Shown here: piece after piece, positions 1-14,000 of the stretch
Layout of the letters: every line of letters starts with the position of its first letter
Numbering within the stretch: position 1 is the first letter of the stretch
Origin: a virus
Reading direction: 5' to 3' (one strand)
Length of the DNA: 22,278 bases
Virus record (IMG/VR): IMGVR_UViG_3300043468_000198
Coordinates: 1-22,278 of that record
Made by a program: the position numbers and the translations under genes
Notes under the pieces: generated by a model
Database searches by the model: none
What the model saw: only the letters and a program-made list of their open reading frames with translations
What the model was told of the DNA's origin: nothing

Positions 1-441
1 GAATGGGTTGAGGCTTGGTGCGATCTCGTTCGCAAATGGAAGCCGATGGCGTGGGCGGAGGAAACCGGGCAGATCAAGTCCGGCGTCGGGCCGTTTCTTG
101 AACGCCGGGCGCATGAGAAGCAAGCCTACTGCGTCCGTGAGCAATTCCCGACGCGCGGCGACAAGGCGGTTCGCGCTCAGTCGATCCGTGGCCGGATAGC
201 GATGCGAGGCTTACGGATACCGAAAGACGCGCCGTGGCGGGCAGACTTTGAGTCGGAGCTTCTGCGGTTCCCGGCTGGCGTTCACGACGATCAGGTTGAT
301 GCGCTCGGCCTTGTCGGCCAGCTTTTGGATCAGATGCTTGCTGGCGTAAAGCCGAAGCAGAATGTCGCGCCTGCAAGAGACAGGTGGGACAGAAAACGAG
401 ATTTCGATGATGGCGAAGATTACGACTGGAAAGCCGTTTAA
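1..441 (+). CDS. Terminase large subunit, C-terminal part (5' end outside window)
   Basis: The reading frame is open from the first base and ends at TAA 439-441, giving about 146 residues of the C-terminus. The segment HDDQVDAL followed by a hydrophobic helix is the signature seen at the end of the RNase H-like nuclease domain of phage terminase large subunits, where the Asp residues help bind the catalytic metals. The enzyme drives DNA into the procapsid with its missing N-terminal ATPase and cuts the concatemer with this nuclease. The stop overlaps the portal start by one base (TAATG), and terminase-portal adjacency is the usual order. The charged C-terminal tail (about the last 25 residues) is typical of the portal-docking end. 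The identification is firm for the family. The packaging type (headful or site-specific) cannot be judged from this piece. Confidence 0.85.
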   Translation, partial: EWVEAWCDLVRKWKPMAWAEETGQIKSGVGPFLERRAHEKQAYCVREQFPTRGDKAVRAQSIRGRIAMRGLRIPKDAPWRADFESELLRFPAGVHDDQVDALGLVGQLLDQMLAGVKPKQNVAPARDRWDRKRDFDDGEDYDWKAV

Positions 442-2273
442 TGGCTGAAGACACGCTCGACGTATCCCGTCTCGTTGAAATGTTTGAGGCAAGCGAGGAC
501 GCGAGCTACGACGCGCGCCTGAATGCCGAGCGCGACCGCGATTATGTAGACGGCATACAATATACAGCCGAAGAAATCGCCGCGTTCAAAAAGCGCAAGC
601 AGCCGCCAATCGTCATCAACCGCATCAAGCGCAAGGTCGATTTTCTCAAAGGCTACGAGCAGAGCCAGCGGGTTAATCCTCGCGCCTTGCCGCGCACTCC
701 AGCCCATGAGAACGACGCAGACGGCTGCGAGCAGGCGTTGCGCTATGTGGCCGAGGATCAGCGGTTCGACCACAAGCGCAGCCGCGTTTGGGAAAACCTT
801 CTGATTGAGGGTATGGGCGGTTATTCGGTCGGCGTGAAGCCGCAGCCGAACGGCGAAGTCTCAATTGAGATCACCTCGATCCCGTGGGATCGGATGTTCT
901 ATGATCCGCATTCCTCCGCGCCCGACTTCTCGGATGCGGCGTATCTGGGTCTTGTTCGCTGGGTCGATTACGACGAGGCGGCGGCGCAGTATCCCGACGC
1001 AAAAGACATGCTGTCGTGGACGCTATCGGATAGCGCCAACAGCGACACCTATGACGACAAGCCTAAATACCGGATATGGGCCGACAACAAGCGCAAGCGC
1101 GTCCGTATATGCCAAATCTGGATCAAGCGGCAGGATCAGTTTTTCTACGCCGAGTTTACCAAGGGCGGAATTCTAAAGGCTGGCCCGTCGCCTTACGTCG
1201 ATGACAAGGGCGAGTCGGATTGCGAACTGATCTTTGGCTCGGCTTACGTCAACCGGGACAATGACCGCTACGGCATCGTCCGGGAGATGATCGGCCCGCA
1301 GGATGAGATCAACAAGCGTCGCTCGAAGGCTCTGCATCTTCTGAACACCAATCAGGTGATCGCGGAGCAGGGCGCGGTTCGCGACGTTGAAAAGGCTCGC
1401 CGCGAGATGGCCCGGCCCGATGGCTGGGTTGAGATTTCGCCCGGCTATTCCGACAAGATCAATATTCAGACGCGTCTTGATCTCGCAACAAGCCACATGA
1501 GCCTGTTGCAGGAGGCCAAGAACGAGATCGACATGATGGCTGGCAACATTGCTCTACAGGGCAATGCGGCGCAGTCAGCGGCCTCTGGCAAGGCGATCAT
1601 CGCAAGCCAGCAGGGCGGCGCGATGGAAATAGCGCCGATTATGGACGCCTTGCGGGATATGGACATCCGCGTTTTCCGCGCCATTTGGAACCGCATTCGT
1701 CAGTTCTGGACCGCCGAGAAGTGGGTCCGCATTACCGACGACGAACGCAATATCAAATGGCTCGGCCTGAATATCGATCCGATGCAGGCGCAAATGCTTG
1801 CCATGCAGAACCCGGAAATGGGCGAGCGGATTGCGGGTATTGTTGGCAATATCGCCCAGCTTGACGTTGATATTATCATCGACGACGCGCCGGACGGCAT
1901 TACGCCGCAGCTTGAACAGTTCCAGAGCCTTGTCGAACTCAAGAAAATGGACGCGATGGGCGAGATGCCTTTCCGCGCGATTGTCGCCGCTATGCCTAAC
2001 CTGAAAAACAAGGATCAGGTTTTGGCGGCTATGGATCAGGCCAAACAGCCGCCGCAAGACCCGGTGGCCATGCAGGCGCAGCAGATGGCGATGCAGCTAC
2101 AGGCCGCCAAGGCGCAGGCCGACATTTACAATACGAACGCCAGCGGCGCGCTGAAAGAGGCGCAGACGCAAAAGACGCTTATGGAGGCGCAATTAGCGCC
2201 GGAGAAGGTGATCAACGACCGCTTCAAGCAGGTCTCGCCTCCGCAGATTTCCGCTCAGCCGCAAGGCTTCTGA
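441..2273 (+). CDS. Portal protein, P22 gp1-like
   Basis: This 610-residue protein should form the dodecameric ring at the capsid vertex through which DNA is packaged and ejected. The N-terminal segment with VINRIKRKVDFLKGYEQSQR, followed by an Arg/Pro-rich stretch, is characteristic of P22-type portals. The middle contains the expected DEINKRRSKALHLLN region and a later QGNAAQSAASGKAI segment. The last about 100 residues are rich in Gln, Ala and Met and look helical, as in the barrel/crown helices of this family. P22 gp1 is 725 residues, so this is a somewhat shorter version with a reduced barrel. It starts at ATG 441 within TAATG, suggesting translational coupling to terminase. The family assignment rests on recognised sequence pattern and gene order. 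Confidence 0.9.
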   Translation: MAEDTLDVSRLVEMFEASEDASYDARLNAERDRDYVDGIQYTAEEIAAFKKRKQPPIVINRIKRKVDFLKGYEQSQRVNPRALPRTPAHENDADGCEQALRYVAEDQRFDHKRSRVWENLLIEGMGGYSVGVKPQPNGEVSIEITSIPWDRMFYDPHSSAPDFSDAAYLGLVRWVDYDEAAAQYPDAKDMLSWTLSDSANSDTYDDKPKYRIWADNKRKRVRICQIWIKRQDQFFYAEFTKGGILKAGPSPYVDDKGESDCELIFGSAYVNRDNDRYGIVREMIGPQDEINKRRSKALHLLNTNQVIAEQGAVRDVEKARREMARPDGWVEISPGYSDKINIQTRLDLATSHMSLLQEAKNEIDMMAGNIALQGNAAQSAASGKAIIASQQGGAMEIAPIMDALRDMDIRVFRAIWNRIRQFWTAEKWVRITDDERNIKWLGLNIDPMQAQMLAMQNPEMGERIAGIVGNIAQLDVDIIIDDAPDGITPQLEQFQSLVELKKMDAMGEMPFRAIVAAMPNLKNKDQVLAAMDQAKQPPQDPVAMQAQQMAMQLQAAKAQADIYNTNASGALKEAQTQKTLMEAQLAPEKVINDRFKQVSPPQISAQPQGF

Positions 2274-2391
2274 GCCAAGGAAGAGCCGTCGCCGGGCTAC
2301 ACGGGCGATAGAGGTTCGCAAGCCTCACTAACTTGCGTCCGTCGCCGGGACATCGGGCGGCTCGTGACCTTCACGTAAACAGGATCAGTGC
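2274..2391 (+). other. Portal-scaffold intergenic region, candidate structured RNA leader
   Basis: This is the largest plus-strand gap in the head genes, and I see no ORF in it. It contains several complementary segments. GTCGCC at 2288-2293 can pair with GGCGAT at 2304-2309. CGCAAG at 2317-2322 can pair with CTTGCG at 2332-2337, competing with GAGG 2311-2314 / CCTC 2323-2326. GTCGCC at 2341-2346 can pair with GGCGGC at 2356-2361. GAGCC 2283-2287 / GGCTC 2359-2363 could close the whole as a multibranched fold. The 11-base word CCGTCGCCGGG occurs twice (2286-2296 and 2339-2349), so the first and third hairpins look like copies of one another. I recognise no named riboswitch or ribozyme. A translation regulator of the scaffold or an RNA processing site is possible; all of this was paired by eye. 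Confidence 0.4.
2376..2387 (+). promoter_or_regulatory. Ribosome binding region of scaffold gene (shared 12-base leader)
   Basis: TAAACAGGATCA lies just before ATG 2392 and supplies an AGGA Shine-Dalgarno core seven bases from the start. The same 12 bases recur before the tail-collar gene at 16027-16038. This supports the chosen scaffold start. Confidence 0.5.
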
Positions 2392-3201
2392 ATGTCAGAC
2401 CTCGATGACATCTTGTCATCGGGTGGAGAACCTGTGTCTCCGCCCGCTCCAGAAACACCGCAGGCAGAAGCTCAACAGCCGGAAGCCAATCAGACCGTGG
2501 CCGAAACGCCGCAGTCTGAGGAAGCAACCGACGAGCAAAAGATGGTCCCTGTAGCCGCGCTTCAGGCCGAAAGACAGAAGAGCCGGAAATATACGGAACA
2601 TCTCGCGCAGGTTGAGAAAGAACTTGCGGAACAGCGGCAACAGTTCAGCCAGTTGCAGCAATGGTTGCTCGCCCAACAGCAGGCGCAACAGCCAAAGCCG
2701 CAGGTTCCCGATTTTTGGGAAGCTCCTGAGACCGCGATTGATTATCGCGTTCAGCAGGAAGTGGCTCCGATCAAAAGTCTACTCCAGAAGCAGCGGGAAG
2801 AATTCTCAATGCTTCAGGCCGTGGACAAGCATGGTCAGGAAATTGTTGACGCGGCGTTTTCGGAAATGCGTTCCCGGATGGCTTCCGATCCTTACGGCGT
2901 GAAGCCTGACTACGACCGCATCATGTCGTCGCCGCACCCGTATGGCGCGTTGGTTGACTGGCACAGAAAGCAGCAGGCTCTCGCCGAGATCGGCTCCGAT
3001 CCGGCTGCCTATCGCGAAAAACTCAAAGCCGAATTGCTTGCCGAATTGCAGCAGCAGGCTCCGGCGGCTCCGTCCGCTCCGAGTCTGAACCTGCCGAGCA
3101 ATTTCGCAGCGGCGCGCAACGTCGGCGCTCGCAGCGGGCCGAATTGGTCCGGTCCCGCACCAATCAACGACATCTTCGACCGAGCCCGAAAAGCCGGTTG
3201 A
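2392..3201 (+). CDS. Scaffolding protein (procapsid assembly)
   Basis: This 269-residue acidic, Gln-rich protein lies between portal and coat, the position of scaffold gene 8 in P22. It begins with a low-complexity Pro/Glu/Gln segment (about residues 1-50). A predicted coiled coil rich in Gln, Glu and Leu follows (about 55-110). The tail is short and Ala/Pro-rich and ends in NDIFDRARKAG, resembling the basic helical coat-binding end of many scaffolds. The protein should guide coat polymerisation and then leave the capsid. Sequence identity to named scaffolds cannot be shown here; the call rests on composition, coiled coil and position. The start follows an AGGA ribosome binding site and a 118-base gap that may carry regulation. 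Confidence 0.75.
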   Translation: MSDLDDILSSGGEPVSPPAPETPQAEAQQPEANQTVAETPQSEEATDEQKMVPVAALQAERQKSRKYTEHLAQVEKELAEQRQQFSQLQQWLLAQQQAQQPKPQVPDFWEAPETAIDYRVQQEVAPIKSLLQKQREEFSMLQAVDKHGQEIVDAAFSEMRSRMASDPYGVKPDYDRIMSSPHPYGALVDWHRKQQALAEIGSDPAAYREKLKAELLAELQQQAPAAPSAPSLNLPSNFAAARNVGARSGPNWSGPAPINDIFDRARKAG

Positions 3202-3216
3202 TGAAAGGAATTCAAA

Positions 3217-4317
3217 ATGGCTGATACGCAGGTTGCGTCGGGCCTTACTGTAGAACAGTGGGACGACCAGTTCTTCCGTGAATATCTTACGGATAACCGC
3301 TTTTCCGAGTCCATGGGCACTGGCGAAAACGCCATTGTTCAGGTCAAGGAAAACCTCACCAAGAAGCCTGGCGACCGCGTTAATTTTGCGCTCGTCAACA
3401 AGCTGACCAATGCGGCGGTCACTGGCCGTTCGACCATGGAAGGCAACGAAGAGGATATGTCCTCGCGTTCGTTCCCGGTCACGGTCAACAAGCGTCGTAA
3501 CGCCGTCCGCGTTGCTGAGATCGATGAACAGTATTCGGCGATCTCGCTGCGCTCGGCTGCCCGCCCGGTTCTTATGGACTGGTCGATGAAAGACACTGAA
3601 GACCTGATCGTCCGGGCTTTGGCGTCGATCAACGGCACGGCCTATGGCTCGGTGTCGGAAGCGAACAAGGACGCTTGGCTTGTCGATAACGCTGACCGTG
3701 TTCTGTTTGGCGCTCTGCGTTCGAACAACTCGGCCAACGATCACTCGGCCTCGCTGGCGAACTGCGACACGACGGCGGACAAGCTCAATGCGGCGGCTGT
3801 TTCCAAGATGAAGTCCATCGCGGAGACGATTGCTAACCCGCTGATCCGTCCGATTCGTTCGACCTCGAACAAGGGTCGTCGTTACTACATCATGTATGCT
3901 CATCCTTTTGCGTTTAACGACCTTAAGGCTGACACGACGATCACGACGGCCCAGCGTGAAGTCATGCTTCAGATGGAGAACGAGCGTCTGTTTGAGGGCG
4001 GCGATCTCTATTGGGATGGCGTCATCATCAAGCAGGTCGAGCAGGCTGTGACGGCTTGGGACTTCGGCACGGTTGGCGCTTCGTCGGCCAAGGTTGTCGG
4101 CGCGTTCCTCTGCGGCGCGCAGGCTGTCGGCACGGCTTACGCCCGCCGCTGGCGCACGACGACCGAGGAGTTCGATTACGGCGACAAGCACGGCGTTGAG
4201 GTGTCGGCGATTTACGGCATCGAGAAGCTGCGCTTCGGCTCCGGCACGAACGACACCGACGATTACAAGGATCACGGCGTCGTGACGGGCTATTTCGCGA
4301 CCGCTGGCCTCGCGTAA
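3217..4317 (+). CDS. Major capsid protein, N4-gp56 family
   Basis: This 366-residue protein is the HK97-fold shell subunit of the N4-gp56 coat family. Recognisable parts are the N-terminal VEQWDDQFFREY segment, the loop with KPGDRVNFALVNKL, the VTVNKRRNAVRVAEIDEQYS stretch, and the C-terminal DYGDKHGVEVSAIYGIEKLRFG segment. All are typical of this family. A clear AAAGGA ribosome binding site lies before ATG 3217. Codon use is strongly biased (GTC, ATC, GCG, CGT), as expected for the most abundant virion protein. It lies 15 bases after the scaffold gene and is followed by a strong hairpin at 4325-4351, a common arrangement that limits read-through from coat into less-needed tail genes. Identity is secure at family level. 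Confidence 0.93.
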   Translation: MADTQVASGLTVEQWDDQFFREYLTDNRFSESMGTGENAIVQVKENLTKKPGDRVNFALVNKLTNAAVTGRSTMEGNEEDMSSRSFPVTVNKRRNAVRVAEIDEQYSAISLRSAARPVLMDWSMKDTEDLIVRALASINGTAYGSVSEANKDAWLVDNADRVLFGALRSNNSANDHSASLANCDTTADKLNAAAVSKMKSIAETIANPLIRPIRSTSNKGRRYYIMYAHPFAFNDLKADTTITTAQREVMLQMENERLFEGGDLYWDGVIIKQVEQAVTAWDFGTVGASSAKVVGAFLCGAQAVGTAYARRWRTTTEEFDYGDKHGVEVSAIYGIEKLRFGSGTNDTDDYKDHGVVTGYFATAGLA

Positions 4318-4324
4318 CGATAAA

Positions 4325-4351
4325 GAGGGCGGGAGCAAGTCTCCCGCCTTC
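4325..4351 (+). terminator. Strong hairpin after coat gene, intrinsic terminator or attenuator
   Basis: GAGGGCGGGAG (4325-4335) pairs with CTCCCGCCTTC (4341-4351) as an 11-base-pair stem with one G-U pair and a five-base loop CAAGT. The stem is very GC-rich. The run after it is only mildly T-rich (CCATTTT), so termination is probably partial. It sits 8 bases after the coat stop and 20 bases before the gp4-like gene. Confidence 0.75.
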
Positions 4352-4371
4352 CCATTTTGGGAATTTGATCG

Positions 4372-4725
4372 ATGAAAACGGTCCGGGACGTTTGCCAGAA
4401 GGCGTTAATGTATGTTGGCGCTGTTGGCGCGGGCCAGCCGTATTCTGCCGAGGATTTGTCGGTCGCAAGTCAGGCTTTCAGGCCAATGCTCGATGAGCTT
4501 GCCGCGACTGACGTTTGCATGGTTTCGGTTCATCCAACCTTGGACGACGAGGAAGAAATACCGGACTATTTTTTCAATCCGCTGGCGCTCTTGCTGGCGA
4601 TTGAAATTTCGGCTGACTTTGGCGCACCTTACGATCCGGTCGCAAGAGAGTCGGCTATTCGGCGTCTCCGGTTGATCGCTTCCTCGCCTGCCTATGGCCA
4701 CCAACAGGCGGCGGAATACTACTAA
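4372..4725 (+). CDS. Head-to-tail adaptor, P22 gp4-like
   Basis: This 117-residue protein starts MKTVRDVCQKALMYVGAVGAGQPYSAEDLSVA. This is the standard opening of the small helical gp4-type adaptors that bind below the portal and prevent DNA leakage. The pattern continues with a second helical block (FRPMLDELA) and an FNPLALLLAIEISADFG segment near the middle. P22 gp4 is 166 residues; this shorter form resembles those of many non-enteric podoviruses. The start follows a weak GGGAA-type ribosome site and the coat hairpin. It ends in a one-base TAATG overlap with the gp10-like hub gene, its physical partner in the neck. It could be called a packaged-DNA stabilisation protein. Confidence 0.8.
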   Translation: MKTVRDVCQKALMYVGAVGAGQPYSAEDLSVASQAFRPMLDELAATDVCMVSVHPTLDDEEEIPDYFFNPLALLLAIEISADFGAPYDPVARESAIRRLRLIASSPAYGHQQAAEYY

Positions 4726-6167
4726 TGCCGCAGGCCGATATACCCTTCCCGCCATCGTCCAATCCCGGCCAGAAGCCCGGAGAAGGGCAGGGAAGGCTGG
4801 TCAACGCATTTTGCGAGCTTGACGGCGGCGTCAGGACATGGCGGCCTGTTCCGGGCCTCTCGCTGTTTTCTACGATCCTTTCCGGCACAACGCCGGTAAA
4901 GAATACGAGAGGAATGTTCGTCAACGGAACGCAGCTTTTTGTGGTTCAGGACGAAAAGGTCTTTACGATCTCGAAAGGCGGGTTCGTTCAGGAACTGACC
5001 TATACGACCGCACTTGCTGGCGATCTTCCCGGTAGTGAGCCGGTCACGATTGCGACGAATAACAAGTCTCCGACGCGGGACATGATTATCGTCACCGATC
5101 TTGGCGTCTATACCGTTGACAATGGCGTTGTTGAGGATTTGAGCGCGCCGAACCTTCCGGCAGTAAACAGTGTCAGCAGCCTCGACGGATTTTTCCTTTA
5201 CACGACGCAAGACGGCAAGGTTTACGCGTCCGAGCTAAATGATACGGCTGTCGAGGCTTTGAGCTTTGCGACGGCGGAGTCGAACCCGGACGGGCTTACG
5301 CGCGGGACGGTTCACGGAAACCAGTTCTTTGCCTTTGGGCCGAACTCGATTGAGGTGTTTCAGAACGTCGGTGCGTCGCCTTTCCCGCTTCAGCGGGTTG
5401 CGGTTATCCCGGTCGGCCTTTTGGGCGCGTGGGCGGTCGCTGGCAACGAAAGCGGCTGGCCGGACGATCAGCTTTTTGTCGCGACGGATTGCACGGTTCG
5501 CAGGCTCAAAGGCTACGATCCGGTTGTTGTGTCGAACAAGGACGTAGAGCGCGCGATTGCCAACGTATTCGACAAGTCAACGATCCGTGCCTTTGTCTAT
5601 GTGGCCGAGGGCAACCCGATCTGGTCTCTATCGTCCGAAACATGGACGTGGGAATATAACTGCGCGACCGGCTTTTGGCATGAGCGCCGCACCGCTGGCT
5701 TGAAACGATGGCTTGGCGAGTCGAGCGTCTATTTCGGCGACAAATGGCTCATTTCCCGCAAGGATAGCGAGCGGCTGCTGTATATCGACAAGGCGTCGAG
5801 CAAGGACGACACAACGTCGATTTCGATGACGATTGAGTCCGGGCCTGTAAAGGACTTCCCGTCGCGTGTTTTTGTCTCGGCTGCCTTTTTCGACTGGTCT
5901 ACCGGCAACGCGCCGCTTAACGGGCCTTTCGATACGTCGGACCCGGAAATTTCGATCTCTTGGTCTACGGACGGCGGCGGCGTCTGGAGCAACGAATACA
6001 TCGCATCGTCGCTTGGCCAAACTGGCCGCTATGTGGAGAGCGTGCGGGTTAACCGCGTCGGGCTCGCCAGCCGCAGCGGCATGAAGTTCCGCCTTATGAC
6101 GACGAGCCCGGTATACAAGACATTCCGTGGCGGTCGCTGTGAGTTCCAGTTGCGAGGTCCGGCGTGA
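4725..6167 (+). CDS. Tail hub / packaged DNA stabilisation protein, P22 gp10-like
   Basis: This 480-residue protein is almost the length of P22 gp10 (472). The opening segment, with PGQKPGEGQGRLVNAFCE, GVRTWRPVPGL and RGMFVNGTQLFVVQ, is the hallmark of the gp10 family. The body is beta-rich with repeated blade-like strands, consistent with the beta-propeller-containing hub of the P22 neck. Its role is to extend the gp4 ring and anchor the needle and fibres. It is coupled to the gp4-like gene by TAATG and to the giant fibre gene by a four-base GTGA overlap at 6164-6167. Apart from sequence pattern and order, I see no further functional residues. Confidence 0.85.
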   Translation: MPQADIPFPPSSNPGQKPGEGQGRLVNAFCELDGGVRTWRPVPGLSLFSTILSGTTPVKNTRGMFVNGTQLFVVQDEKVFTISKGGFVQELTYTTALAGDLPGSEPVTIATNNKSPTRDMIIVTDLGVYTVDNGVVEDLSAPNLPAVNSVSSLDGFFLYTTQDGKVYASELNDTAVEALSFATAESNPDGLTRGTVHGNQFFAFGPNSIEVFQNVGASPFPLQRVAVIPVGLLGAWAVAGNESGWPDDQLFVATDCTVRRLKGYDPVVVSNKDVERAIANVFDKSTIRAFVYVAEGNPIWSLSSETWTWEYNCATGFWHERRTAGLKRWLGESSVYFGDKWLISRKDSERLLYIDKASSKDDTTSISMTIESGPVKDFPSRVFVSAAFFDWSTGNAPLNGPFDTSDPEISISWSTDGGGVWSNEYIASSLGQTGRYVESVRVNRVGLASRSGMKFRLMTTSPVYKTFRGGRCEFQLRGPA

Positions 6168-9100
6168 GCGCGGATCAGGAAATCCTGCCTCCGCCGCCGC
6201 ATATCGCGCGGGTTGACAAAGAGGGCCGACCGTCAAAGGCGCAAATGGACTATGATGTCCGTTTGCAGAAAAATTTCAGCGAGAAGCAGGCTGAAAATGC
6301 GGCGGCATTGGCTACCGTTCAAACCAGCCTGCAAAACCAGATAACCAGTATCGACGCCGATCTCGCCGATGCGCGGCAAGATTTTCTGGATATTGCTGAA
6401 GTCGTAACAAACATTCAGTCCGAGGTAGATAATGCGTCAGCAGAACTGATTGTTTTGCAGGGCGCTTTTGCCGATGAGCAAACAGCGGTTGCTGGCGAGC
6501 TTACGTTAATCAACGCCAGAGTTGATGACACAGAGGCGTCGATAACTTCAGAGTCACTTGTTAGGGCTACGGCTGACACCGCGCTCGGAACAAGAATTGA
6601 CAACCTCGTTCTGACCACTGGCAATAACGCTGCGGTTATTATTGATCAGGAAGCGCAGGCCAGAATTGACGCCGATGACGCATTAGGCGTCAGGATCGAC
6701 AATGTTGTTGCCGATTTCGATGATCTGACCGCCGCTGTAAGCGATGAGACGACAGCAAGATCATCGCGAGACAATGCGCTTGCATCGAGAATAACGACTG
6801 TCTCTGTTGGCGCATCCCGCGTATATGTTCAGGACGATGCGCCGTCATCGTTTGGCAGACTTGTCGGCGATGTTTGGTTTGAGACAGACTCTACGCCGAC
6901 CGCATATAAGCCGTATTACTGGACCGGCTCGGCATGGGCTGACAATAGCGACGGCACATACAAGATCGGGCAGATCGCTGTCTTGTCGAATGACGTGACG
7001 GCTCTGCGAGACACTGACAAGGCTCTTGTTCGCAGTGTAACGCGCGGCATTGCCTCGATGTCGCGGGTTTACACGGAGGACAACGAACCGTCAGGCGTCC
7101 GGCAGCCGGGCGATGTCTGGTACGACACCAACGACGGTTACAAGCCATACGTCTGGGCGCAGGTAAACGGAACCGGCTCGTTCGGCTGGCGAGACAACAC
7201 CAACGGGACATATAAATTCGGTGCAATCGCGTCGTTTGAGAACAGCATTTCGGCGCTTGTAACAACGGTCGGAGACAATACGACCGGGCTCGTAAAGCAG
7301 GTCAACGACCTGAATGTCACAATCGGAGACGCAAGCTCCGGTCTCGTTCAGACGACCAATGTTCTGGTTTCAACGGTCGGCAACAATACAAGCGGTCTTG
7401 TCCAACAGGTTAACAGCCTGAACAGCACGGTCGGAAACGTAAATACTGGCCTCGTCCGTGACGTTTCAACGCTTTCAACGAAGGTTGGAGACAATTCGTC
7501 CGGCTTGGTTCGTGATGTATCGACACTAACTGCAACAGTCGGTAATAGCACATCCGGTCTTGTTCGTGACGTAACGGTTCTGAATAACAAAATCGGCGAT
7601 GAAACGACCGGCCTAGTTAGAGATGTCACGACGCTTAGCGTTACGGCAAATCAGAAACGGGTCTATTATCAATCCTCGCAGCCAACCGCTCCCGCGAATT
7701 CATCCTTTTTTAATGGCGACGTTTGGATCGACTCCGACGACGGCAACAAGCAATATGTGTGGAACGGCTCGTCCTGGACGAACAGTAGCGATAGTCGGTT
7801 TGGAACTATCACTAAAGTTTATCGGCAATCAATACAGCCAGCAGGATCGGTTGTTGGCGACATTTGGTTTGATACTGCTAACAATAATAAATCCAAATAC
7901 TGGAATGGTTCTTCTTGGGTAGATACAAGCGATACCAGACTGAATAATATACCGGCGCTATTCAATCAGACCAGCGCTCCAAGCTCAGCCGGGCGAGTTG
8001 TCGGAGACTTGTGGTTTGATAGCGATGACGACAACAGACTGTATTTCTGGAATGGGTCTATTTGGGACGACGTTAGCGACGGTCGTATAGATTATATCAC
8101 ATCGGTATACAGACAGCCTAACCAGCCTACAGGCTCTGTTACAGGCGATGTTTGGTTTGATACAGATGACGGCAACAAGGCGTATTATTGGACCGGTAGC
8201 GCATGGGCTGACACAAGTGATGTCCGTCTAGGAAACATACCGGCAATCATAAGCCAAATTAGCCCTCCGTCTAGTTCGGGCAGAGTAATCGGTGATCTCT
8301 GGTTTGATACTGACGATAATAATCGCCAATATATATGGAACGGATCGGCTTGGGACGATGTAAGCGACGGTCGGATTGATCTTATTCCGACCGTTTACCG
8401 TCAGGATGACGAGCCGTCTGGAAGCGTTGTCGGAGACATTTGGTTTGATACAAACGCAAATAATCGAGCCAGATATTGGACAGGAACGGCGTGGGAGGAT
8501 ACGAGCGACACGCGGCTTGGCACAATTCCGGCGATTATATCGGACTCCGCAGAGCCTACCAGCACGGGAAGAAATATCGGAGACATTTGGTTTGATACAA
8601 ATGACGGTAATCGACAATACTATTGGAACGGGATAGATTGGGTTGATAAAAGTGATGCGCGGTTTGATACTATACCAACTGTTTATCGGCAAAGCACATC
8701 TCCATCAGGCAAGGTAGTAGGTGATCTTTGGTTTGATACCGGAAATAATAATGCGCCATATTACTGGAGTGGAACAACATGGATTCCGATAGGTGATAAT
8801 AATAAAGCAACTGTTGCTTCTGTAACTGATGAAAAAATAGCGAGAGTTAATTCGGACTCCGCTATTGCACGATTGGTTACAACAGCCAGTGCGGGAACTG
8901 CTAGGGTATATGTTCAAGAAACACAGCCCGGCAATACATCTGGCCAGCCAGGGTATCCAAGGCAACGCGGCGACGTTTGGTATAATACCGCGATTGATCT
9001 AGCTACCCTCACTCCGAAATTCGAGCCTTGGGTTTGGGCTCCATCAAGTTCATCTTCTACAGACGACACATGGCGACTCAATACGAATGGCGCTTATTCG

Positions 9101-13736: not shown

Positions 13737-14000
13737 TTTCTCGTCGAGGCTTTGGAAAAGTTCAATTTCATTAAAAAGGCAACACGCTGAGTAGATGGCG
13801 TGGCTCCAGAACGGAAACACGGTGAACCCGGCAACCACGAAATAAAAGTTCGCCGCGTTTTCGTAAGTCGCTGAAATACCGATCATCGACAGACCTTTAA
13901 TGGCTGCTTCAAACGCAAGCCATCCCAACGCCACGTACACAGCAATCTCAAACATACGAGTGACGATCCAGATGGGAATGTTTGACGCTTTACCTGACAT
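13635..14000 (-). CDS. Small two-helix inner-membrane protein, candidate superinfection exclusion or conversion gene
   Basis: This 121-residue protein is read against all its neighbours. Residues about 17-42 and 51-76 are strong membrane helices (VALGWLAF and FYFVVAGFTVFPFW cores). They are separated by a short SATYEN loop and followed by a charged C-terminal domain of about 45 residues that should face the cytoplasm. A Shine-Dalgarno TGAGGA (14010-14015 on the complement) lies nine bases before the ATG. The 235 bases at 13737-13971 hold no plus-strand gene, so the ORF explains an otherwise empty stretch. Its C-terminus overlaps the 3' end of the second ejection gene, and its start overlaps the 5' end of the third by about 29 bases. 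P22 carries the membrane exclusion gene sieA next to its ejection gene 16, which makes exclusion a plausible but unproven role. I recognise no family. Confidence 0.75.
   Translation of the reverse strand: MSGKASNIPIWIVTRMFEIAVYVALGWLAFEAAIKGLSMIGISATYENAANFYFVVAGFTVFPFWSHAIYSACCLFNEIELFQSLDEKLEPARIEPLLTQEIDDSLPTLPRDRGTRFFEDI

Follow-up and report, generated by a model that had tools for sequence, protein, structure and literature searches.

A bulged-G hairpin conserved in phage scaffold-gene leaders: a structured RNA and possible translational operator

The 118-nt leader between the portal and scaffold genes of a phage head operon appears to be a structured RNA, built on a small hairpin with a single bulged G that is conserved in phage scaffold leaders, and this assignment was supported by comparative sequence analysis. 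The leader lies in the window, by which we mean the whole 22,278-nt stretch of viral DNA that was analysed, and the features discussed here are as follows.

441-2273, + strand: P22-type portal gene, upstream of the leader (PF16510, E 2.2e-106)
2274-2391, + strand: leader between the portal stop and the scaffold start (ORF table; homologous leaders)
2290-2307, + strand: HP1, bulged-G hairpin CGCC-G-loop-C-G(bulge)-GGCG (pattern, covariance model, covariation, fold)
2311-2337, + strand: H-type pseudoknot (S1 2311-2314/2323-2326, L1 2315-2316, S2 2317-2322/2332-2337, L3 2327-2331)
2343-2359, + strand: HP2, second copy of the bulged-G hairpin (pattern, covariance model, covariation, fold)
2363-2375, + strand: HP3, CGTGA-CCT-TCACG hairpin just 5' of the Shine-Dalgarno (SD) sequence (moderate support)
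2381-2384, + strand: SD sequence AGGA of the scaffold gene (sequence)
2392-3201, + strand: scaffold gene of 269 aa, probably the one under control (phrog_8865, E=0.001; position)
3217-4317, + strand: major capsid protein (MCP) gene, downstream (PF13252, E 2.1e-56)

Open reading frames and profile matches identified the window as a phage head operon whose head genes are of the P22 type. The ORFs at 441-2273 and 2392-3201 leave exactly the 118-base gap that a sequence-only reading of this DNA had placed between portal and scaffold. The 269-aa ORF is likely the scaffold, as judged from its place between the P22-type portal and MCP genes together with a weak match to the phrog_8865 "head scaffolding protein" profile; its homologue at locus L048 matched the same profile at 7.7e-29. 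The description of the late genes as packed within a few bases of each other was accurate for most of them, but gaps of 54 nt (4318-4371) and 163 nt (13737-13899) also occur. The former, which follows the MCP gene and contains a GC-rich hairpin, folds much better than shuffles (z -2.94), and P22 has an annotated stem-loop at the matching place after gene 5. The latter, in the later structural gene region, showed nothing unusual (z -0.53 for 13737-13880).

The two copies of CCGTCGCCGGG that had been noticed in the gap begin at 2286 and 2339, and the pattern CCGTCGCCGGGN{2,8}CGGGCG matched twice in the window and in none of 100 shuffles. The prediction that each copy could form its own hairpin agreed with the folding of the HP1 and HP2 regions singly, which beat shuffles with z scores of -3.23 and -2.43. 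The whole 118-nt gap, folded as a single sequence, was no better than shuffles (z -0.62), and the minimum-free-energy prediction for the window (-41.5 kcal/mol) was a long-range cross-pairing of HP1 with HP2, far stronger than the local fold (-19.8 kcal/mol, with pseudoknot stem S2 uncounted).

Homologous loci, designated by L numbers, were collected through the portal (80 viral loci kept of 86 encoding a portal relative) and, independently of the motif, through the MCP. The MCP search yielded 76 new viral loci, at least nine of which are contigs overlapping earlier sets (4 more of 80 kept had been fetched earlier), and 32 bacterial-genome loci. Redundancy removal left 166 scaffold leaders and 177 MCP leaders. 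In the viral contigs, the portal-scaffold gaps of the portal relatives carried the same motif, mostly twice. An alignment of 68 copies (A1) defined the unit as GY-CGCC-N-loop-N'-G-GGCG, that is, a stem of four pairs whose 3' arm has one bulged G, topped by the pair N-N', which closes a variable loop, 3-9 nt long. The CGCC-N..N'-G-GGCG hairpin occurred 216 times in the 166 non-redundant scaffold leaders, with 0.43 expected from shuffles, which do not model the relatedness of the sequences. At least one copy was present in 131 of these leaders; two copies are usual, and up to four in tandem were seen (L095, L097, and L113). At one copy (L333:17-54), an inner GTGTG/CACAC hairpin enlarges the loop while the outer bulged stem is kept.

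The sequence of the stem is nearly invariant, compensatory changes notwithstanding. Single-pair variants, in which one stem pair is exchanged for another Watson-Crick pair, numbered 24 in the scaffold leaders against 3.11 in shuffles (maximum 7), again with relatedness left out of the control; in the MCP leaders they were not enriched (7 against 2.71, maximum 9). When pairing was not required at the pair under test, the scaffold leaders held 203 consensus copies in the sense orientation and none in antisense. Double changes restored pairing in 9 of 12 cases at pair 9-28, in 3 of 4 at 10-27, in 10 of 11 at 11-26, and in 13 of 23 at 13-23, so that compensatory changes were found at four of the five hairpin pairs; pair 12-25 received no support from covariation (0 of 4 restored). 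Compensated stems include UGCC..GGGCA (L241, L245, and L277), AGCC..GGGCU (L244), CACC..GGGUG (L242, L281, and L283), and CGAC..GGUCG (L203, L312, and L315). The last type implies that the lower stem consists of pairs 9-28 to 12-25 and that the extra G adjoins the closing pair. A looser count, allowing up to two stem changes, gave 32 compensated doubles against 25.45 in shuffles; it was swamped by the GC-rich background, and the hairpin counts were made with a stricter skeleton. The MAFFT alignment of the variant copies (A4) placed gaps at the ends rather than in the loops and was consequently excluded from the pair counts.

Model searches gave a similar picture. A covariance model built from the A1 copies (R1) produced 120 matches at E<=1 in 79 sources, the best of them mostly members of A1 itself, and only 4 of the 120, none with E below 0.15, fell on the minus strand. 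Among matches to model R2 at 47 loci picked for their divergent leaders, four of five pairs had changed on both sides (15 cells against 1.9 in shuffles), a count that leans towards the structure to which the alignment was fitted; slid versions of the R2 pairing scored far below the true pairing. Taken together, the compensatory changes in homologous phage gaps, which exceeded chance and affected both the hairpin and the pseudoknot described below, and the sense-only orientation upheld the earlier proposal of a structured RNA, for which covariation had been named as a check.

We then considered which gene the array precedes. At the 152 non-redundant loci that contain a single scaffold gene and a single MCP gene, a search of 220 nt upstream placed the array before the scaffold alone in 117, before the MCP alone in 11, before both genes in 5, and before neither in 19, a group that includes arrays missed for lying beyond 220 nt, as in L095 and L175. 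Where the scaffold gene is relocated to a place before terL (L026 and L119), copies lie just upstream of it there too; in L119 the MCP gene also has a copy, and in L104 copies are found at the MCP only. With a position weight matrix (PWM; score >=16), the MCP-fetched viral set gave 88 matches just upstream of the scaffold and 19 elsewhere, two of these upstream of the MCP, and the bacterial-genome set gave 36 and 12, respectively. At least one copy was carried by 49 of 67 scaffold leaders in the viral MCP set, 22 of 29 in the genomes, and 58 of 64 in the portal-derived set. The same PWM scan of all loci then in the set returned 591 matches on the forward sequence against 132 on the reversed one. 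A pattern scan reached at least 120 loci, and among the 120 listed, 39 had a copy just upstream of a gene recognized by a scaffold or MCP HMM. Some of the remaining 81 matched within long GC-rich ORFs, and some are loci whose head genes have diverged; in five, an ORF begins 15-32 nt after the hairpin, and these ORFs could be identified as head genes only in part. The element keeps to head genes and is missing from most other genes of the phages. An ORF of about 190 aa without a Pfam match stands between the array and the MCP gene in L095 (2886-3464), L164 (2340-2909), L175 (6489-7034), and L154 (5751-6326, minus strand), and in L154 arrays precede both this ORF and the MCP gene.

In most of the loci listed, about 13-36 nt separate the end of the last hairpin from the start codon, leaving no room for another gene. 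Leaders with a short linker between the hairpins often have the last hairpin ending about 13-16 nt before the start; in those of the window type the distance from HP2 to the start is about 32-36 nt, and HP3 occupies part of it. Among 113 hairpin-hairpin linkers in scaffold leaders, 79 were of 12 nt or less, 5 of 13-21 nt, 28 of 22-45 nt, and 1 longer. Many short-linker leaders (L047, L049, L061, and others) have a terminator-like hairpin with a T-run between the portal gene and HP1.

The linker of the window had been read as a central pair of mutually exclusive hairpins. Both pairings are present, S1 as GAGG/CCTC and S2 as CGCAAG/CTTGCG, with loops TT and ACTAA; they fit an H-type pseudoknot and can therefore coexist, so that the supposed exclusivity was not borne out. 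An H-type pseudoknot of fixed topology passed in 30 of 47 long linkers (23 of 32 scaffold and 7 of 15 MCP), against 23 of 366 (6%) when the 3' strand of S2 was taken from another leader and 28 of 940 (3%) shuffled linkers. Both stems vary in sequence between leaders (e.g., CGATG/CATCG, CCGTG/CACGG, GCGTG/CACGC, and GGGACC/GGTCCC) and yet stay complementary. These data supported the prediction that long linkers fold as H-type pseudoknots.

A third hairpin followed HP2 in 24 of 32 long-linker scaffold leaders, compared with 32% of shuffles; the HP3 of the window alone was no stabler than its shuffles (z -0.01). The HP3 loop CCU could pair with the AGG of the window SD, and third-hairpin loops paired over at least 3 nt with the SD in 28 of 34 cases, but swapped partners did so in 61%, which leaves the HP3-SD pairing only suggestive. 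All five leaders with a CTAGG SD (L226, L229, L017, L216, and L027) have CTA in the loop, and these five may be related. As for the closing pair proposed earlier, GAGCC (2283-2287) and GGCTC (2359-2363) do occur, but homologues do not conserve the pairing between them: across 151 hairpin pairs, own and swapped complementarity were equal (mean 8.42 and 8.43), and this stem was dropped.

The hairpin was found in phages of cyanobacteria and in prophages of alpha- and betaproteobacteria, the bacterial-genome loci with matches including Sneathiella, Erythrobacter, Ruegeria, Pandoraea, Achromobacter, and Variovorax. It also occurs with other head genes. In L157, whose portal and MCP belong to phrog_1216 and phrog_1357, a single copy lies directly at the start of a scaffold gene matching phrog_8865 at 1.8e-4. 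Eight of 14 relatives of L157 (L328, L331, L333, and L336-L340) had a sense match at E<=0.2 upstream of the scaffold region and two (L329 and L330) a match at 0.54; the other four (L332, L334, L335, and L341) had no match there. Neither the two motif-bearing scaffold groups nor the two MCP groups matched each other as profiles (hhalign probabilities 2.0 and 2.3). Among named phages, the element is present in Pam5, Pan3, Pam1, and CBW1004C-Prop1. It was not found in the leader regions of 10 of the 12 named relatives searched (P22, KPP25, KLEP18-1, RHph_Y1_10, SopranoGao, BcepMigl, MW202512, AP1, PBC5, and phiARM81mr), and thus belongs to part of the portal/MCP family and not to all of it. SopranoGao (L208:3693-3902) and BcepMigl (L209:3606-3800), both without the hairpin, have a gene annotated as a CsrA-like regulator immediately before the MCP gene, possibly the protein equivalent of the RNA control. 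HNH endonuclease genes lie between the scaffold-region genes and the MCP gene in KLEP18-1 (L206:3184-3762, minus strand) and RHph_Y1_10 (L207:3250-3825).

The position of the leader makes dosage control of the scaffold plausible. We propose, with a confidence that stops just short of even, that this leader works in cis as a translational operator for the scaffold gene and would keep scaffold output in step with head assembly. During an excess of head proteins, a protein then available (the scaffold itself is the likeliest candidate, the coat protein the next) would bind the paired hairpins and block ribosome access to the SD a few bases downstream, and we infer that scaffold translation would be repressed in this way. 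A protein on the last hairpin of short-linker leaders would cover the SD; in window-type leaders, the block may act through HP3, by pairing of its loop with the SD. Scaffold synthesis would resume once the scaffold had been taken up into procapsids. The enrichment of the hairpin, its sense-only orientation, the compensatory changes, the pseudoknot, the link to the scaffold, the position, and the precedent of T4 gene 32 all speak for such an operator, as does the lack of a dedicated regulator shared by Pam5, Pam1, Pan3, and Prop1, among which the Pam5 proteins matched in the other three were portal, MCP, and NinB only. Against it count the predicted cross-pairing in the window, the weak HP3-SD pairing, the 19 of 152 loci without an array, and the 10 named relatives without the element.

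The ligand may be the scaffold, the coat, or a host factor. The near-invariance of the stem argues for a conserved partner and the restriction to head genes for a head protein, whereas the missing profile match between the two scaffold groups is awkward for the scaffold as ligand. That mismatch, which extends to the MCP families, together with a stem held nearly constant where compensatory changes are allowed and the spread over phages of cyanobacteria and proteobacterial prophages, would suit a conserved host factor (the ribosome, one of its proteins, or another RNA-binding protein) that binds the hairpins and tunes or enhances scaffold translation with no phage ligand. We regard this as improbable on balance, though deserving serious weight, since a general host factor leaves unexplained why the element is confined to head genes. 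An unlikely explanation is an mRNA processing or stability device, in which a processed 5' end is shielded by the hairpins and pseudoknot, or these form a nuclease site, so that the scaffold and portal messages differ in abundance. The terminator-like hairpins between the portal gene and HP1 (e.g., L037, L046-L049, L053, and L061) mean that the transcript may be cut or terminated there, but many leaders have no terminator, and the conserved small bulged-G stem, its closeness to the SD, and the frequent paired copies fit a protein site better. Very little probability attaches to a small-molecule riboswitch with HP1-pseudoknot-HP2 as aptamer and HP3-SD as expression platform: the pseudoknot and a possibly SD-sequestering HP3 resemble a translational riboswitch layout, but most leaders lack the pseudoknot (their linkers being of 12 nt or less), the sequences of its stems are free to vary, and the genes encode structural proteins and not metabolic functions. 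Equally remote is a DNA-level repeat (an operator, recombination, or mobile element) with no RNA function, which the GC-rich tandem direct repeats would recall but which the compensatory stem changes already disfavour, as do the exclusively sense orientation, the variability of the loops, and the location at the SD.

Extending the operator reading, one may tentatively suppose, although we think it rather doubtful, that a single bulged-G hairpin, alone or in tandem, serves as a common operator across dsDNA phages with different portal and capsid families, and that in the lineage of the window the hairpin pair and pseudoknot control an anti-SD HP3. If this were true, scaffold (or coat) synthesis would be adjusted to procapsid assembly by a portable sensor of head assembly. 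In any case, an RNA that recurs at the scaffold start, and sometimes at that of the coat gene, among phages from several groups of bacteria offers a concrete, mutable target for studying how scaffold is kept in step with coat. The hairpin is also a sequence tag for scaffold genes, which are too diverged for easy recognition by protein similarity (mean column identity 24% in the scaffold alignment A3).

The balance between scaffold and coat in tailed phages is an old question, of which P22 is the classic case: its gene 8 scaffold is autoregulated, with dosage controlled after transcription. The leader described here shares the portal-scaffold-coat position of P22, but P22 has a gap of only 13 nt between genes 1 and 8 (3880-3892), and there was no R1 match in its stretch 1-7500. 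Our literature searches did not return this autoregulation of gene 8. The coat-protein operator of MS2/R17 likewise consists of a small hairpin, adjacent to a start site, in which a single purine is bulged; here, the bulged G is on the 3' arm of a stem of 4+1 pairs, the hairpin usually occurs in two copies, and the phages are dsDNA phages. Two tandem small leader hairpins also make up the mini-ykkC (guanidine-II) riboswitch, whose loops are ACGR; the A1 loops are not, no Rfam match was obtained, and the genes downstream are not transporters or metabolic genes. Nor did the hairpin loops, variable in A1, contain the constant GGA of a CsrA-type site.

The search against RNA family models, proposed as a further check, gave nothing: Rfam 15 had no match for the window at the gathering threshold, none at E<=10 for 2200-2450, and none in 12 further motif-bearing loci, so the element would add a family absent from Rfam. 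No report of it was found in the literature searched, which included portions of PMC9382816, PMC2864571, and PMC8040213, and it may stand in the 2017 structured-RNA survey; the portions of PMC2629481 and PMC3741392 covered likewise held nothing on scaffold autoregulation. The element is probably a phage cis-regulatory leader RNA, with a layout unmatched by any described one in the part of the literature covered. The nearest likeness is to the translational operator of T4/RB69 gene 32, a pseudoknot in the 5' leader upstream of the SD whose topology is conserved while its sequence diverges, and which can seed autogenous repression (PMC535899). The window leader likewise places a pseudoknot ahead of a phage gene's SD. 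In contrast to the T4 operator, with its one pseudoknot and unstructured UUAAA repeats bound by an ssDNA-binding protein, the phage scaffold leaders have tandem bulged-G hairpins as the constant part, an optional pseudoknot, and a putative ligand, and the gene controlled would be a head scaffold (phrog_8865) rather than an ssDNA-binding protein.
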